In this document: positions 39,692-49,434 of the stretch, piece by piece | Layout of the letters: each line of letters opens with the position of its first letter | Position numbering within the stretch: the first letter of the stretch is position 1 | Source: Gammaproteobacteria bacterium | Lineage (GTDB): Bacteria; Pseudomonadota; Gammaproteobacteria; Pseudomonadales; Azotimanducaceae | DNA: 64,000 bases | Assembly: GCA_026707945.1 (NCBI GenBank) | Contig: JAPOVV010000016.1 | Span: forward strand, 1 to 64,000 | Reading direction: 5' to 3' | Notes under the pieces: model-generated | What the model was told of the DNA's origin: nothing | Database searches by the model: none | The model's input: only the letters and a program-made list of their open reading frames with translations | Program-made: the position numbers and the translations under genes

Positions 39692-41290
39692 TTGGCGACA
39701 CATTTCGGTTGGGATTTCCCATACGCTTCAAGACGCGCGCCTGTTATCGCACGCAACGTGGTAGCAACATCGCAGCCACTTGCTTCTCAAGCAGGGATAC
39801 GCATGTTGCAGGACGGCGGCAACGCCGTTGACGCAATTCTGGCTGCAGCCATTACGTTAACCGTCGTCGAACCTTGTAATAACGGGGTCGGTAGCGATGC
39901 ATTCGCGCAGGTGTTTGATGGTACGCGTCTGCACGGCTACACAGGATCGGGTCGATCCCCCGCCTCATGGAGTCCGGCAAGGTTCGACCACTACGATGAA
40001 ATGCCGACCCATGGTTGGGACGCGGTTACCGTTCCGGGAGCAGTCCAGACTTGGGTTGACCTTCACGACAAATTCGGCGTTGTACCTTTCGACGCACTTT
40101 TTGAATGCGCGATCGAGTACGCAGAGCACGGATTTCACGTTGGTCACAAAACAGCACCTCTATGGCAGCGAAGTGCGGAGATCTTTTCCGAGTTCGCACC
40201 GTTTCAAAAGCATTTTTGTGTCAATGGTCGGGCACCAAGCGTTGGCGAACTGTACGCTCGACCTGAGCTCGCTGAATCGCTTAGAGATATCGCGGCGACG
40301 AAAGGTGAATCGTTCTATCGTGGCGCTATAGCTCAAGCAATTGTTAAGCAGTCCGACGCGGAAGGTGGGTGCATCGACGTAAACGACTTAGCCGGACATA
40401 AAGGCATTTGGCAAGAACCGCTTTCAGTTGACTACCACAACGTACGGCTGCACGAACTGCCGCCAAGTGGACAGGGATTGGCGGCGCTCATTGCCCTCGG
40501 AATTCTTCGACACACCAATGTTGCCGACATGCAACCTGACTCAGCAGACTGGATTCATGTGCAGGTCGAAGCGATGAAAATCGCAATCCGCGCCGCATTT
40601 GACCATATCGCCGATCTAGAAGTAATGGCTGACTTCGTATCAATCGAAGAGCTTATTAATGGGGAGTCGCTGCGTAGAGCATCGACGACAATCCAAAACA
40701 CAGCGTCAGACCTTCCCCCGCTGCGACTACCTGTAAGCCACGATACGGTGTACCTTGCTGCAGCCGACGCGTCCGGCATGATGGTTTCTTACATTCAATC
40801 CAACTACATGGGATTTGGATCCGGAATCGTCATCGATGGAACGGGGATCGCGATGCAGAATCGAGGCGCGGGTTTCGTGTTAACTAACAACCACCCGAAT
40901 CAAGTCGGTGGCGGTAAACGACCATTCCACACGATCATTCCCGGATTCGTCACAGACCTCAATGGTTTACCGCTTGCAGCGTTTGGCGTTATGGGCGGTC
41001 ATATGCAACATCAAGGCCACGTCCAGATGGTGAGTCGCATATTCGATCACCAACAAAATCCGCAAGCGGCTTCGGACGCGCCACGATGGCACGTCACGCA
41101 AGAATTCGAAGTCGTCTTAGAAGGCGGTATCGATCCTTCCGTTGCCAGAGAACTGCAGAGCCGCGGCCACAGCGTTTCAATTGAATCCGAGGAACATCGG
41201 TTTGGCGGCGCACAGTTGATATGTCGCATGGACGATGGTTATTGTGGCGCTTCAGATCACCGCAAGGAGGGATGTGCGCTGGGTTTTTAG
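39692..41290 (+). CDS. Gamma-glutamyltransferase/acylase homologue, cytoplasmic
   Basis: The 532-residue protein belongs to the self-cleaving gamma-glutamyltransferase family (Ntn hydrolases). Autocleavage would occur before Thr352 in S-H-D-T-V-Y, leaving that Thr as nucleophile. Other conserved parts are D-G-G-N-A-V-D-A near residue 41, N-N-G-V-G-S-D-A and G-S-G-R-S-P near 85. There is no signal peptide, so unlike E. coli Ggt it should remain in the cytoplasm; related enzymes include cephalosporin acylase-like and oxamate-type hydrolases. The start is TTG at 39692. The substrate is uncertain. Confidence 0.85.
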   Translation: MATHFGWDFPYASRRAPVIARNVVATSQPLASQAGIRMLQDGGNAVDAILAAAITLTVVEPCNNGVGSDAFAQVFDGTRLHGYTGSGRSPASWSPARFDHYDEMPTHGWDAVTVPGAVQTWVDLHDKFGVVPFDALFECAIEYAEHGFHVGHKTAPLWQRSAEIFSEFAPFQKHFCVNGRAPSVGELYARPELAESLRDIAATKGESFYRGAIAQAIVKQSDAEGGCIDVNDLAGHKGIWQEPLSVDYHNVRLHELPPSGQGLAALIALGILRHTNVADMQPDSADWIHVQVEAMKIAIRAAFDHIADLEVMADFVSIEELINGESLRRASTTIQNTASDLPPLRLPVSHDTVYLAAADASGMMVSYIQSNYMGFGSGIVIDGTGIAMQNRGAGFVLTNNHPNQVGGGKRPFHTIIPGFVTDLNGLPLAAFGVMGGHMQHQGHVQMVSRIFDHQQNPQAASDAPRWHVTQEFEVVLEGGIDPSVARELQSRGHSVSIESEEHRFGGAQLICRMDDGYCGASDHRKEGCALGF

Positions 41291-41615
41291 TACACCGCAC
41301 CTACCGAATAACGACTAGGAGCAAACTGTCGATGATCCATCCTAGAAAACACTGAAAGCGTGGATCTACCTTCTTCGAGTCAAGTTTCTGGTTATTGGCC
41401 GCAATTCCTTAAAGTCGAAGTGTTCGCTCAACTACGATCTAAATCGAATTGATCAATAAATCGACGCGAATACCATTGATGCATAAACATGCCTGCGCCC
41501 CACACGCTACAGGCGTGACTCTCGCCCACAAACCGTTTACAGACAAATCTTGATCAAGTATTCCCTCAGCTGTCATCCGAATCTACGTTCAGTCAGGAAT
41601 TTCAGAATAAGCGCT

Positions 41616-42494
41616 ATGCGCTCTGCAGCGTCACGGGGTATCGCCAAGTTCGCGTTGCTCTGTTGGTGTAGCGTTGGTTCAACAGCGCTTGGTCATGGTG
41701 ATCTACATGAAAAGATCGAGGTACTTGATGCGTTGCTCAAACAAAATCCCGATCATGTTGCTTCGCTGCTCGAGCGTGCAGATATCCATCGTAGGCATCG
41801 TAACTTTGACGACGCGTTAGAGGACTTGAACCGTCTCCGCTCGCTTGCACCAACGAACAACACGGTTTACTACATGACCGGGCTGACACTTCTCGAACAA
41901 GGTGAATTCGAAGAAGCTGAAACAGCACTTCGCACCTTTATCAGTCGATCGCCAAGTAGTCCGCGGGGTCACATAGCGCTTGCGAAAGTGCTCACGCAGC
42001 AAAAACGACATCTGGATGCCGCGCAAGAGTACGAGTTAGCCATAGAAAACCAATCGATTCCAACGCCGGATCACTATCTCGCTAGAGCTCACGCATATAT
42101 GGAAGCCGGGAAACCCTATTTAGCTCGGGCATTGCAAGGACTTGAGGATGGGATGGCATTGATGGGTCCTCTTCTCACATTCCACAGGCTTGCGATAGAG
42201 ATTGAAATAGCTCAAGAGGACTTTCAGAATGCGATTGACCGCATAAATATGATTCTCCACGAAGCAGACCGAAAGGAAACGTGGCTCGTAAAAAAGGCTA
42301 AAGTCCTTTCGTCAATGGGTCGGAATGAGGAAGCACGACAGCAATTTCTGCTTGCGGAACGCGCGATTGCGTTACTTCCCCACCGAACGAGAACCTCGCC
42401 AGCCATACAAACTTTACGAAAGACCATTCAAGAGCATTTGAACCATGAACCCCAGGAAGAGAACGTTCAAAATGAATCAGACATTCGACCATAA
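41616..42494 (+). CDS. Exported TPR protein upstream of giant phosphoesterase
   Basis: The protein has a signal peptide (basic start, hydrophobic core ending near T-A-L-G-H-G) followed by about five tetratricopeptide repeats, for example [12 protein letters not shown] and A-L-A-K-V-L-T-Q-Q. The ATG at 41616 is preferred over an in-frame TTG at 41550, because it places the signal peptide at the N-terminus and gives 292 residues. Its 3' end overlaps the start of the giant secreted phosphoesterase gene, so they are coupled and probably act together, the TPR protein perhaps as a periplasmic partner during export. That role is inferred. Confidence 0.8.
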
Positions 42495-45400
42495 ATCATC
42501 CCTCGCAATCGCTCTACTGAGCGTTTTCCTGCTTTTTACAGCGTCAGTCTCTAACGCGGAACATCTAATCGAGAAAGGCTCGACCTGGCTGTACATAGAC
42601 GATGGGAGCGACCTAGGTACCGCCTGGCGGGAGACGGACTATGACGACTCGAGCTGGAGTTCAGGAGCCGCACAACTCGGTTTCGGCGACGGTGACGAAA
42701 CAACCACGTTGACGAGTGGACATATCACCTACTACTTCCGTCAACACTTTACGCTTGAAGACACCGAGAGTATCGCTGGTCTTTCACTAGAGATCCTAAG
42801 AGACGACGGGGCTGTCGTCTATTTGAATGGCACCGAGGTTTATCGGACCAATATGCCAACCGGAACAATAACGGCGAATACCTTCGCTGCTGGCGCGATC
42901 GAGACAAACGAGTTTTTCATACACGAATTTGATGCTTCAGCTTTGCAGCAAGGGAACAATGTCATAGCAGTTTCAGTTCACCAGGCTAGTCTTACCAGTT
43001 CGGATGTAAGTTTCGATTTTTCCCTTGAATCTACCGAAACTGAACCGGGAGCTAACAACCTCGTTAACGCTGGATCAACGTGGAGTTATCTCGACGACGG
43101 GAGCGATCAGGGAACGGCGTGGCGGGAATCGGATTTCGATGATTCGACTTGGGCGTCCGGCCCGGCAGAACTTGGTTTTGGCGAAAATGATGAAGCAACA
43201 GTACTTACTTCCGGGCACATCACCTACTACTTTCGACACAAATTCAATATCGACGACTTGGATTCGATCGTGGCTTTCGGTCTTCGACTCAAACGTGACG
43301 ATGGCGCGGTCGTATACCTGAACGGGACTGAAGTTGCTAGAGATAATCTCAGTGGCGACGTCACCTACACCACGCTTGCTTCAAACGCGGCCGACGACGG
43401 CGCGAATTTCCATCGATTCGACGTAGCGAAAGACTCAGCCGTGCTGGGTGAAAACGTCTTAGCTGTAGAAGTACACCAAGTTTCAACTGGAAGCTCAGAC
43501 CTTAGTTTCGACCTGGAATTAGCCTGGATCGCCGAAGATACAGCACCAGAAGTCGTACGCGGACCCTATCTCCAGATGGGAACACCATCATCGATGATCG
43601 TTCGGTGGCGTACGGACGGTTTTACCGATACGAAACTCTCCTATGGTCTCGCGGTCGACGACTTGACCGAAACCATCGAGAACGAAACGCTGACGTCGGA
43701 ACATGAGGTGCTCATTTCCAACCTAGATTCGGACACCAAGTACTTTTACGAAATTGGTAATTCGAGTATGACATTTGCGGGAAATGACGCTGACCATTAT
43801 TTCCAGACCTCGCCTCCCAAAGGATCTGATGATCCCATTCGTATTTGGGTCATCGGCGATTCTGGACAGTGCGCAGTCGACAACCAAGGATGTATGGATG
43901 TCGACGCTGTAATGGAAGAATACCTCGCGTGGACATCAGACAATGGTGAAGCACACGCAGACATCATCCTCATGCTTGGCGACAATGCATATAACAATGG
44001 CACGGATAGCGAGCACACACGAGGCTTGTTCGAGCCACTCGCGAAAGTACTTAGAAATCATGTCTTGTGGCCGTCACCTGGAAATCACGAATTTGGGGCT
44101 TCCGACTCTCCGACACAGTCGGGACCTTATTACGAAGCTTTTACGCTTCCTAAGTCTGCAGAAGCCGGTGGTGTAGCTAGCGGCACAGAAGCGTACTACT
44201 CCTTCGACTACGGCAATGTCCATTTCGTTGCCCTGGACTCACACGATACCGATCGCAGTGCGCCGAGCAATCCCACAACGAACATATGTCCTGATACCAG
44301 TGGAGGCGGCGCAATGTACAGCTGGCTCTGCGAAGACTTGGCCGCGACTACTCAAGACTGGATTATTACTTACTGGCACCATCCTCCATACACGAAAGGT
44401 TCACATGATTCGGATGCCGAATCTCAGCTAGTAGAGATGAGGCAACGCTTTAACCCTGTCATTGAGCATTTTGGTTCAGACCTGAATCTCACGGGTCATA
44501 GCCATTCATATGAGCGTTCAGTGCTCATCGATGGACACTACGGCTTCTCGAGTACATACAACCCCGACGTCCATGCGAAAGATTCGGATAACGGTAACCC
44601 CACAGACGATAACGACTATCAAAAGGATGAGGGCAGAAATCAAGGCTTGGTATATTCGGTCGTCGGGAGTTCCTCCAAGGATCAGGGCGGTCTCTCACAA
44701 CACGCCATCATGGCTTACTGGGTGAACATCGAAGGTTCGATGATCGTCGATATCAATGACAATCAACTCGACGGGACTTTCGTCGATAAAAACGGAATGG
44801 TTCACGATCAGTTTCGAATCATTAAGACGTTTGAACTGGTTCCAACAGAAACAGATACTGATGGTGATGGAATAGACGACGACACTGACAATTGTGTTAG
44901 CGTCGCAAATGAGGATCAACTGGACACGGATTCCGATGGCGTCGGCGACGCCTGTGACGACGACGACGACAATGACGGTGTGCCCGATGATCAGGACGCC
45001 TATCCACTAGATGCATCGGCGAGCGTCGACGTTACGCCACCTGAAATCAGTGGCGAAGACATTACACTAGAAGGCAACGCACCCGGGGGCGTAAGCCTCA
45101 CATCCGCGCTTCTGCGTGAACACCTTACCGTTTCCGACGATGCCGATTCGGCGGAAGAAATCGAGATCACGGCAGATGTTGGCGAATTCTTGTCGCTAGG
45201 TGAACATACCGTTACATTCACTGCAACAGATTCCGCTGGTAACACAAACTCGCTAACAATAACTGTGACCGTCGTCGATACGACGGCTCCGAGCATCGAG
45301 GCTCCGGATTCCGTCACGATCAATCTGTTTTCAACCGATGATGGTGTCTCGATAGGTTCCATGTTTATCGGCGAGAACGCCACATGGCGTTACCTCGACG

Positions 45401-48400
45401 ACGGTTCCGATCAGGGCACCGCCTGGCGCGAGACTGATTTTGACGACTCTGCATGGTCGAGTGGCGCTGCCGAACTGGGATTCGGCGACGGCGACGAAGT
45501 AACAGAGATCACTTCCGGTCATATCACCTACTACTTCCGAAACGAATTTTCGGTTGAGGACGCCGCCGCAATACGAGATTTGAGATTGAGGCTCGTACGA
45601 GATGATGGTGCTGTCGTTTATCTCAACGGCACAGAAATCTACCGCACCAATATGCCGGAGGGCGAAATCAACTCTGAGACTCGGGCTACGACAGCCATCG
45701 GTGGGGCAGCAGAATCAGCCTATGTCGTATCGACGTTTTCATCTGAGGCTCTCCAAGATGGGCAAAACGTCCTAGCTGTCGAGATTCACCAGAATTCCAG
45801 TACCAGCTCGGACGTCAGTTTTAAATTGGAACTCACGACTGCTCCATTCGAAACTGAAAATTTCGTGATTCGTGCGGGAACTGCTTGGCGCTACTTAGAC
45901 GACGGTAGCGATCAGGGAACGGCCTGGCGCGAAATAGACTTTGACGATTCCGGTTGGTCTAGCGGATTGGCGCAGCTCGGCTTTGGCGATGGCGACGAAG
46001 CCACGACCATCGCCAGTGGTCATATCACGTACTACTTCCGCAAACATTTCCTTGTTGCTAACCCGTCGTCATTCCGCTCCCTCGAACTGTCCATAAAACG
46101 AGACGACGGTGCCGTCGTTTACCTCAATGGAACGGAGGTAGTCCGCGCAAACATGCCCGAAGGCGAAATCACGTTCGAAACGTTGACTTTTGACGCTGGA
46201 CAAGAAAATGAGTTCTATGACTTTACGGTCGATCCAAGCCATTTAGTGAAGGGCGACAACGTCATGGCGGTGGAGGTGCACCAATCGAACATCAATAGTT
46301 CTGACGTCAGCTTTGACCTGGAGCTGACAGGCGTCGTATCACAGACCAACACGGTCGATCCAAGTAACAGCAAAATCCAGAGTTTCATCAACTCCGTAAC
46401 CGCGGTCGATCTTGTTGATACGGATGTACCAGTAACGGCCAACGTGCCCAGTACCTTCAATCTCGGTATACCGAGAGATATCCTTTTCAGAGCCAGAGAT
46501 GATTCCGGAAATCCGGCTGCAAAGAGGGTGTCGTTGTTGGCGAAAATCGCACCCGATCTCACCGCGCCAGACAACATCGAAGTAGTTTCAGTCGATGGCG
46601 GCAGTATGCCCAGCGACTACTCAGTTATCAAAGCCTTTCTTGAAGGTGCGACAGCATCCGACGAAGATGGCAACGAACTTGAAGTCACCCATGACGCTGG
46701 GGATTCACTCCCCCTCGGTTTGACCGTCGTAACGTTTTCGGCGACGGATAGTATCGGTCGAACAGCTACGGATACCGCCACTATCACGATTATTGAACCT
46801 ATGAGATTCGCCGATACAGACGGCGATGGTATGCCTGATCTGTATGAGGCGGAAAACCAACTTGATCCTAATCTTGACGATGCAAACGAGGATTTGGATG
46901 GTGACGGATTGGCCAATATTGTTGAATATCGGCAAGGGACGAATCCAGCAATAGACGACAACCCGCCGGTCGTAACTGTTCCGAGTGACATGCGCGTTCC
47001 CGCAACTGGTTGGTATACACCAGTCGATGTTGGCATGGCGACGGCTATGGATGCACTAGATGGTGACGTAGCAGCTACAAGCGACACGATGACCAACGAG
47101 TTCAGACCCGGTGTGCATACGATCACTTGGTCAGCGTCCGACGCTGCTGGCAACTCGGCACAAGGTACTCAAACTATCGAGATTCTGCCTCTCGTCCAAG
47201 TATCTTCGCAAGGACGGGTCGGGGAAGGTCAGACCTATCAGTGGACGGTGTCTCTCAACGGAGACGCTCCCAGCTATCCAGTGGAAGTCCCATTTGCGTT
47301 ATCAGGTACGGCAAGCGACGAAAGTGATTTTTCGGTGTCAGGAATGGCGGGAAGTGATATCCTCATCGCAAGAGATTCAACCTGGCGTTACCTCGATGAT
47401 GGGTCAGATCAGGGTACGAGTTGGCGAGAAACAAACTTCGACGACTCGGGTTGGTCGACCGGCGCTGCAGAACTGGGATTTGGCGATGGCGGTGAAACAA
47501 CCACACTGACTTCAGGCCATACTACGTACTACTTCAGGCATCATTTCAGCGTAGTGGATGCTACGTCCGTGGAAGGTCTGAAATTGAGTATTGTGCGTGA
47601 CGATGGCGCCGTGGTCTATCTCAATGGCACGGAGATCTACCGTACCAACATGCCCGACGGTGAGATCACATCTTCGACGTTTGCACCAAGTGCGATCGGC
47701 GGAGCCGCCGAATCCACCTACGAGACGGTGGAGCTATCAGCCGACCAACTACAAAGTGGTCAAAACGTTCTTGCGGTCGAAGTGCATCAGAACTCGCCCA
47801 CTAGCTCGGACGTCAGTTTTAATTTGGGACTTGAGATAGGGGATGCGCCTGGTGCGAACGATCTAGTATCCGCAGGAGCGACGTGGCGTTACCTAGACGA
47901 CGGGAGCGATCAAGGTACGGCGTGGCGTGAGACAGCATTCGATGATTCCAGCTGGTCTTCTGGTGCTGCCGAGCTAGGCTTTGGCGACGGAGATGAAACG
48001 ACTGTAATCGCTTCAGGTCATATCACGTATTACTTCAGGTACCATTTTTCTGTGGACATGCCGGAGAGTATTGCCTCCCTCACGCTATCCCTGAAGCGTG
48101 ACGATGGAGCCGTCGTCTATCTCAATGGAACGGAAGTAGCTCGTGACAACATGGAAGAAGGTGACGTTACATACACCACCTTGTCTACGGGCGCAGCGGA
48201 CGACGGGAACAATTTTCATGATTTCACAGTCGCTTCAAGTCACCTTGAGGAAGGAAACAACGTATTAGCGGTTCAAGTCCACCAAGTGAGTGCCACTAGT
48301 TCGGACTTAAGCTTCGACTTGAAACTTGTGAAAGTTCCGGCTGCGGCTGAAACTCCGACGAGCGTAACGATTGCTTCAGCTCATGAAGGTATGCTCTTCC

Positions 48401-49434
48401 TCAACATCGCATCAGACGGTGATGCAGAGGGAGAAGAAACTATTGGATTGACGCTCTCAGAACCAACGACCGAAAACTCCGTTGTCGGATCACAGGATAG
48501 CACCGAGGTATCCATTGTGGAAGACGCAGTGCCACCCAGCTTGTCCATTTCCATTTCTCAGGGTGAGAATTCCGGGCAATTTGTATCGGCTGACGGCGGA
48601 AATGTCGTGGCGACGGTAGAGATCCAAGATCCCAACGGAACACATACTGCCGACTGGAGCCAATCCGACAACAATCTAGTGGCACTAGACGGAAGTGATT
48701 CGTTGACCTTTAGCTTTGATCCTACTGGTCTTGTTGCTGGTCCCTATCTCGTTAGCGCTGATGTGAGTGACGATGGGATCGCCGACCAAACATATAAGGT
48801 TGGTAAGCTCATTCACGTATCAGCCGATGCAGCGTCGCCCGATCTCGATGAAGATGGCATCCCCGACGAGTTCGATGAAGTCGCGGCGGAACATGCAATC
48901 GCGCTCGACGCATCTGAAAGCGATCGTGTAGCTGTAGCTGAACGAGGTTCGAAACTCGCTGCAGGAGGAGCTGCGACCTCCAATTCCGTACAAGGTGTGA
49001 AAGTGACAGAGTCAATGATCGTCGAGGGTGGTGAGGATGGCGGCGATGCTCCGCTAAACGCTGAAGACACCGGCTTTGACTATGGATCGGGACTCTACGA
49101 TCTGGAAGTTCAACGGATTCCAGTACCTGGTCAATCCGTTCGAATCGTCATCCCAGTAGGTGCAGAGATTCCGGCCGACGGAATGCTCCGGATTTACACA
49201 GAAGCTGAGTCTTGGATGGATTTCACGACCGACGAGAACAACACGGTAGCTAGTTCTCAAGGTACCGCGACCAGCTGTCCCGAGGTTGGCGCCGAGAGTT
49301 ATTCAAGCGGATTGAATGAAGGTAGTTTCTGTATCCAATTGATGATCGAGGACGGTGGTGCTAACGATGCGGATGGCGAAGCTAACGGTGTTATCGATTT
49401 CCTCGGTGGCGTTGGAGCGCCTGCATCCAATTGA
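42472..49434 (+). CDS. Giant secreted metallophosphoesterase with nested repeat modules
   Basis: A signal peptide leads into about 2,320 residues. Order: two jelly-roll-like modules; a fibronectin-type and purple acid phosphatase-like metallophosphoesterase unit (motifs GDSGQ near 43852, GDN near 43978, GNHE near 44083, HH near 44376, GHSH near 44494); Ca-binding thrombospondin type 3 repeats; a HYR-like domain; half of a second HYR domain, two more modules, the second half; a further HYR domain and TSP3-like stretch; half a Calx-beta domain, two modules, its second half; then a domain resembling choice-of-anchor U. Start 42472 has AGGAAGAG upstream. Likely outer-surface or secreted, releasing phosphate from organic esters; the repeats may bind carbohydrate. 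Function is inferred from motifs. Confidence 0.85.
42571..43530 (+). repeat. Module pair copy 1 (N-terminal) of the giant phosphoesterase
   Basis: Two tandem modules of about 150-160 residues each, with consensus W-x-Y-L-D-D-G-S-D, [27 protein letters not shown] and V-H-Q-x-S. The two units start with their first Trp codon about 500 bases apart. This copy directly follows the signal peptide. Confidence 0.9.
45367..46332 (+). repeat. Module pair copy 2, inserted in a HYR-like domain
   Basis: Same tandem arrangement and spacing (about 500 bases between units) as the N-terminal pair. The sequence before it ([11 protein letters not shown]) and after it ([12 protein letters not shown], then F-N-L-G, then D-S-G-N) are the two halves of one HYR-type domain. 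Confidence 0.85.
47368..48330 (+). repeat. Module pair copy 3, inserted in a Calx-beta-like domain
   Basis: Again two units about 500 bases apart. The sequence before it ([15 protein letters not shown]) and after it (V-T-I-A-S-A, then [11 protein letters not shown]) are the first and second halves of a Calx-beta-type repeat. Confidence 0.85.

Follow-up and report, generated by a model that had tools for sequence, protein, structure and literature searches.

The window analysed here comprises the first 64,000 nucleotides of contig JAPOVV010000016.1 (forward strand; assembly GCA_026707945.1), from a gammaproteobacterium of the Azotimanducaceae. On its plus strand, an open reading frame (ORF) at 42445-49434 encodes a purple-acid-phosphatase-like phosphoesterase of 2329 amino acids (aa), predicted to be secreted, in which one kind of module recurs as three tandem pairs. 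An internal ATG at 42472 is the likely start, fitting the starts of orthologues better than 42445, and opens a probable Sec signal peptide (42472-42558, aa 10-38) that was called by reading the sequence rather than with a predictor, at the point where the orthologue alignment begins. Module pair A (42568-43527; modules A1 42568-43041 and A2 43063-43527) comes next, N-terminal and outside any other domain. It precedes the enzyme part (43567-44511), identified by Pfam and PDB sequence matches, in which a purple acid phosphatase N-terminal domain (Pur_ac_phosph_N, aa 375-441) and a metallophosphoesterase domain (Metallophos, aa 465-689) both score above their Pfam cut-offs. The PDB sequences closest to this part are purple acid phosphatases (best E 1.7e-15), and the phosphoesterase sequence contains readable motifs that we take to be those of the metal site.

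Downstream on the same strand, an uninterrupted HYR domain found with Pfam (HYR1, 45025-45273, aa 861-943) is followed by the left half of a second (HYR2, 45280-45354, about aa 946-970), pair B with its linkers (45355-46359, about 335 aa; B1 45367-45840, B2 45868-46338) and the right half of HYR2 (46360-46542, about aa 1306-1366). HYR3 (46570-46827; HYR 21.2 bits, cut-off 21.7) is uninterrupted, with the loop that is split in HYR2 intact, and HYR4 (46954-47184, aa 1504-1580; HYR 29.6 bits) is likewise uninterrupted. Next come the left half of a Calx-beta-type domain (47191-47349, about aa 1583-1635), pair C with its linkers (47350-48354, about 335 aa; C1 47365-47838, C2 47866-48336) and the right half of that domain (48355-48522, about aa 1971-2026). 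The HYR2 halves were delimited with a joined-flank profile and Pfam run on the joined halves, the Calx halves with a joined-flank profile and uninterrupted homologues. A C-terminal part common to many gammaproteobacterial proteins (48532-49431) ends in a choice-of-anchor-U-like stretch (aa 2292-2324; 30.8 bits with NCBIfam, just under the cut-off of 32). Families above the Pfam cut-off in the protein were HYR, CBM-like, Metallophos, Pur_ac_phosph_N, TSP_3, Bact_surface_Ig-like and BetaGal_ABD2.

Three pairs of a jelly-roll module

Six copies of the motif W-x-Y-[LI]-D-D-G-S-D (at aa 48, 213, 981, 1148, 1647 and 1814) belong to six jelly-roll modules of about 158 aa, arranged as pairs A (aa 42-361; A1 42-199, A2 207-361), B (aa 975-1298; B1 975-1132, B2 1142-1298) and C (aa 1641-1964; C1 1641-1798, C2 1808-1964). 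An earlier note on this DNA had described three copies of a module pair of about 330 residues, and its pair coordinates agree with these within a few residues. The alignment of all six modules that it proposed gave B1-C1 (71% identity) and A2-C2 (70%) as the closest of the comparisons reported here, followed by B2-C2 (68%) and A1-C1 (65%); the two modules of one pair share 55-61%, and A1-C2, at 62%, nearly equals A1-C1. As first modules are closest to first modules and second to second, the pair appears to have moved as a unit. The W, D and G residues of the modules are invariant.

Among identical residues, 53-67% of codons differ between copies, and the synonymous divergence (dS, NG86 method) was undefined through saturation in 13 of 15 module comparisons. 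The copies are therefore old, as the earlier note had supposed from their many synonymous differences, and a recent tandem duplication is ruled out by the same saturation. Tandem Repeats Finder reported nothing; copies so diverged would escape it. Gene conversion between copies was also rejected: when the copies of the window gene and of its orthologue at locus L049 were compared with orthologues at L049 and L050, no 20-codon window showed a same-gene copy above 85% identity that matched it as well as, or better than, the orthologue did.

The modules are probably galactose-binding-like jelly rolls related to modules of rhamnosidases and of glycoside hydrolase family 2 (GH2) enzymes, to judge by profile matches and models. 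Pfam matched them to CBM-like and BetaGal_ABD2, and a PDB sequence profile search returned only the rhamnosidase structures 3w5m and 3w5n (E 8.5e-7 for 3w5m). Foldseek results for models of the two internal units were led by GH2 beta-galactosidases and beta-glucuronidases for B and by a rhamnosidase for C. The jelly rolls of alpha-L-rhamnosidase (PDB 3w5m) and GH2 enzymes provide both the sequence matches and the best fold matches, but the modules here are not attached to a glycosidase, and an NCBIfam rhamnosidase model gave 122 bits against a cut-off of 1720.

The HYR and Calx-beta-type hosts

To compare the two interrupted sites with uninterrupted domains, we used profiles of the joined flanks, made from nine orthologues for HYR2 and five for the Calx-beta-type domain, and ran them on 1048 ORF segments of 78 loci, none of which had a module match. 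In separate alignments, Calx halves were entered as rows of their own beside whole uninterrupted domains, divided at a fixed point, and one misplaced short row was removed on the HYR side. A match was said to span the junction if it covered at least 10 residues on each side, and matches were counted as distinct by matched string; loci overlap, so a few domains are counted twice among them. The loci had been preselected by searches with the right halves, so these counts speak to contiguity rather than prevalence.

On the window, the joined-HYR profile matched in two pieces, at aa 945-971 and 1307-1367, and it ran unbroken through HYR3 (19.1 bits). Elsewhere it gave 59 distinct matches in ORFs without a module match, 43 of them spanning the junction, with uninterrupted HYR-type examples at L187 and L165. 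In Pfam scans, neither window half alone matched HYR (PF02494); joined, they gave 17.9 bits over profile positions 2-73 of 81 (cut-off 21.7). The joined flanks of seven further orthologues all matched HYR at 14.3-22.7 bits, two above the cut-off (eight of nine orthologues were scanned, the window included and L051 left out), and the right half of one orthologue matched HYR alone (19.4 bits).

The joined-Calx profile likewise matched the window in two pieces (aa 1580-1633 and 1971-2026), and all 34 of its distinct matches elsewhere, in ORFs without a module match, spanned the junction (for example at L160). Seven of ten uninterrupted homologues matched Pfam Calx-beta (PF03160) with E up to 0.02, two above the cut-off. 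The stretch from the right Calx half to the C terminus has matches in 44 of 369 genomes of the class. Among 29 loci besides the window's own, 19 had a good right-hand match, and the left half lay directly before the right in 17 of these; in the other two (L145 and L150) the match starts further downstream. Of 20 larger loci, 14 passed the filter, with the left half beside the right by phmmer in 11 and by eye in three. This gammaproteobacterial cassette (HYR, Calx-beta type, choice-of-anchor-U-like C terminus) is homologous to the end of the window protein, but in the loci read it is uninterrupted and without the module.

The uninterrupted relatives are the strongest evidence that the halves at each site belong to one domain, as the earlier note had proposed; some joined-profile matches are to more general Calx-beta or HYR repeats of those proteins. 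At both sites the host stops, a foreign domain follows and the host resumes at the same point; matches are about as long as the profile stretches they cover, which leaves no clear loss of host residues at either site. On sequence evidence, then, a HYR and a Calx-beta-type domain are each opened at one loop by one two-module unit. AlphaFold2 models were obtained for each interrupted unit. That of aa 943-1373 (14 rows) reached a mean predicted local distance difference test score (pLDDT) of 77.3 and a predicted template modelling score (pTM) of 0.55, with flanks at pLDDT 86-87 (residues 1-20) and 79-94 (residues 361-420). In the model of aa 1579-2029 (19 rows), the flanks reached 74-85 (residues 1-50) and 71-88 (residues 391-450), with most of the guest below 60.

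Distribution, descent and constraint

The module pair is present in five of 18 genomes of the genus (the window's own among them), and each of the five has three matches, in the same places. Orthologous frames in the genus measure 2321-2332 aa; the orthologue in genome G010 (L025, apparently the same record as L051) is interrupted by a TAG in the phosphoesterase region, and its two open pieces, of 640 and 1691 codons, were analysed separately. Searching the genome of the window with pair A returned four matches, each of them inside ORF 42445-49434, and no second copy of the gene. The isolate names of related genomes (COS, IRC and RHO) presumably refer to sponge hosts. Directly upstream, a gene for a tetratricopeptide repeat (TPR) protein (41550-42494, plus strand) overlaps the start of the ORF; a homologue lies upstream in nine of ten loci tested, the exception being L056. 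A gamma-glutamyltranspeptidase gene at 39692-41290 lies upstream of the TPR gene.

A scan of the genome collection with the pair alignment found at least 75 loci. Among the matches listed, L052-L055 are orthologues with pair A and with pair B at the same HYR loop; they have no C pair and no Calx profile match, and a different repeat region ends the protein. L054 and L055 have three N-terminal modules, the extra one grouping with A1-type modules. At L056 (9749-12403), pair A is joined directly to the repeat region with no phosphoesterase, and L098 holds one module and the start of a phosphoesterase, cut by the contig end; neither architecture is informative on B or C. The window protein shares Pur_ac_phosph_N and Metallophos with purple-acid-phosphatase-like secreted phosphoesterases. 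Three more distant relatives of this kind (L029, L030 and L031; open frames of 491-570 aa) were rejected as empty-site relatives, having no module, joined-HYR or joined-Calx match.

Pair B thus occurs in two orthologue groups, and pair C with its host only in the window's genus. An entry of B before the two groups split is indicated. A tree of 24 pairs with two outgroups recovered A (93/90), B+C (96/92) and C (99/96), with B itself unresolved. In a tree of 68 modules the position classes separate, C1 stands beside the B1 group of the genus (94/76), and the order of the second-module classes is not settled. These trees and the distribution of the pairs favour C as the sister of B over an origin by separate copying of A. 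The earlier claim that a fixed unit was copied twice is borne out in that one unit sits in two hosts, but these are probably not two copies of pair A. The simplest order would be a founding tandem pair, then separation of A and B before the two orthologue groups split, and then either the origin of C, in the window's genus, out of the internal lineage, or loss of C together with its host in the other group.

The ratio of non-synonymous to synonymous divergence (dN/dS) between the window and four orthologues (three for A, as only the larger L051 piece was used) was 0.09-0.14 for A, 0.15-0.29 for B and 0.09-0.25 for C, against 0.21-0.37 for the HYR2 halves, 0.20-0.32 for the Calx halves and 0.08-0.12 for HYR1. 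All parts are constrained, the split hosts less so, and the earlier view that the product is maintained agrees with the values of 0.09-0.29 across the three pairs. A separate observation concerns 47485-48370 (about aa 1681-1975): across most of the C pair, DNA identity to the L049 orthologue, from another species, is 93-98% in nearly all 30-codon windows. Between the two high-identity parts (about aa 1680-1820 and about aa 1850-1975) it falls to 82%, at aa 1820-1849. Identity elsewhere in the gene is about 69-87%, and the whole tract stops close to the right-hand boundary of the guest. A tract so unusually alike looks like a recent exchange of the guest between lineages.

Other hosts, known systems and possible role

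The module family also sits inside at least one more kind of host, in other phyla, judging by joined-flank scans. Non-orthologous loci contained at least 95 module blocks (score of at least 60), of which 55 were internal and 43 remained after near-duplicate loci were removed; joined flanks were scanned for 17 of these 43, picked partly by eye. Three blocks gave junction-spanning matches untrimmed (L076 block 1; L094 blocks 2 and 3) and one after trimming of linkers (L099). In the planctomycete locus L094, joining the flanks of blocks 2 and 3 restores a full Big_9 domain (profile positions 1-89 of 89); the whole-sequence Big_9 scores, 71.2 and 105.1 bits (cut-off 23.6), each include a second stretch. 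The surface protein encoded there (L094, 9200-12250) has module blocks at three Big_9-like places. Joining the flanks in L076, which has near-duplicates in L079 and L086 (Akkermansiaceae, Verrucomicrobiaceae), recovers Cadherin_4 together with part of Big_9 (49.2 and 43.1 bits). For L099, a junction-crossing Fn3_assoc match (28.3 bits, cut-off 23) appeared only once linker residues had been trimmed. The other 13 of the 17 blocks gave no spanning match, including L122 and L094 block 1 even when trimmed, and neither did a further L076 junction in the scanned sequence; several unscanned blocks lie, by eye, between FN3 domains.

The earlier note regarded insertion inside domains as a departure from normal shuffling. 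That does not hold up against an ECOD survey, which reports domain insertion in about 20% of multidomain proteins, 169 families found solely as inserts, and inserts smaller than their hosts in 77.0% of events, with medians of 115 and 199 residues (PMC13114784). The present case shares with its A1-B-A2 insertions the interruption of one domain by another of a different family, and runs against the size order typical there, the hosts measuring about 86 (HYR) and 109 (Calx) residues and the insert about 335. In RTX adhesins, split Ig-like domains project ligand-binding domains (PMC12077191, PMC10865825). The likeness is a beta-sandwich host in a long surface protein whose loop is interrupted by a binding-type domain and then completed. 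Here, by comparison, a phosphoesterase bearing a signal peptide has a tandem pair as guest, which exceeds its host in size, and two kinds of host carry copies of one guest. The case resembles RTX split-domain display but is no RTX adhesin. A whole-protein Pfam scan at E up to 1 found no RTX family, type I secretion not itself being tested. A literature search confined to one open-access library and to the terms used listed no paper about the protein of ORF 42445-49434, nor any describing the module within HYR or Calx-beta domains. New here are the ectoenzyme setting, the tandem pair larger than its host, the two kinds of host in one protein and the Big_9/cadherin-like hosts elsewhere.

The protein is likely a secreted phosphatase with binding arms, going by its domains. 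We give a probability of about 0.6 to the reading that the internal pairs are guests in split domains and that a predicted surface phosphatase displays binding pairs sideways from a stalk. In galactose-binding-like jelly rolls the termini generally lie close together, which would let each pair bud sideways while the host keeps the stalk continuous. Held at the surface, the secreted phosphatase would carry a binding pair at the tip and two more on the stalk, and the pairs would hold polymers, probably glycans, while the purple-acid-phosphatase-like domain releases phosphate. We infer the binding of sugars or polymers, the sideways display, the surface anchoring and the display beside an enzyme.

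Several observations weigh against this picture. Pair A is N-terminal and unsplit, so splitting is not needed for the role of the pair. No homologue that we found has the whole architecture with an empty B or C site; the homologue search suggested by the earlier note thus yielded relatives without C (L052-L055) and uninterrupted hosts, but not this contrast. A tree of second modules alone joins B2 and C2 only weakly (61/81). The Foldseek TM-scores are low (at most 0.28 to the query), the C-unit list also includes a fungal lectin, a viral capsid protein and BcsB, and the 3w5m match covers profile positions 134-279, from the end of module 1 into the start of module 2. The model of the C unit is poor overall (mean pLDDT 57.8, pTM 0.37). 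The window HYR2 falls below the Pfam cut-off and the window Calx halves match no Pfam family, singly or joined; with the faster evolution of the hosts, such weak matches mean that the hosts may be partly degraded.

These last points bear on whether the flanks form one folded domain at all, or whether the pairs instead lie between remnants of two domains or in hosts that no longer fold. The structure prediction that the earlier note had called for goes part of the way: by pLDDT, both flanks are modelled with fair to high confidence. We regard such non-domain flanks as very improbable, because the halves match adjoining stretches of single uninterrupted domains and the joined flanks of all eight scanned orthologues (of nine) match HYR. 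An assembly or binning artefact that duplicated the pairs, which the fragmentation of the source genome into 117 contigs might suggest, has a negligible chance and is to all purposes ruled out by the same three pairs in the assemblies of five species and by their saturated synonymous divergence.

A more serious rival accepts the insertions and denies their position any display function: the pair would be a passenger in permissive loops, spread by recombination between repeats, and function would lie in pair A and the enzyme. The host halves do evolve faster than HYR1, domain insertion is common in the survey cited above (PMC13114784), and two species resemble each other far more in a tract of the C pair than in its host, so that the pair seems to recombine. 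Yet all five orthologous genes of the genus keep both guests, dN/dS is well below 1, the W, D and G residues are invariant, and other hosts too contain modules of this family. We therefore consider a mere passenger unlikely, while giving it real weight.

The protein offers a comparative case: a two-domain unit occupies two different host folds in the same chain, and both hosts have uninterrupted relatives. Among the questions that it makes accessible are which loops tolerate a guest that outsizes the host, how folding copes with it, and whether secreted enzymes, like adhesins, make use of split-domain display. With modules of this family in other hosts and phyla, searches for the family may well bring further such guests to light. 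A broader proposal, to which we assign even odds, is that the family is a recurrent guest, single or paired, which has repeatedly entered loops of unrelated beta-sandwich domains (HYR, Calx-beta type, Big_9/cadherin-like and possibly Fn3_assoc/chitobiase-C) belonging to surface proteins from several phyla, in some proteins more than once, though the guest is larger than the host. If true, this recurrent guest would be a general way to put binding modules sideways on a stalk, one that is not confined to RTX adhesins and serves secreted enzymes too.

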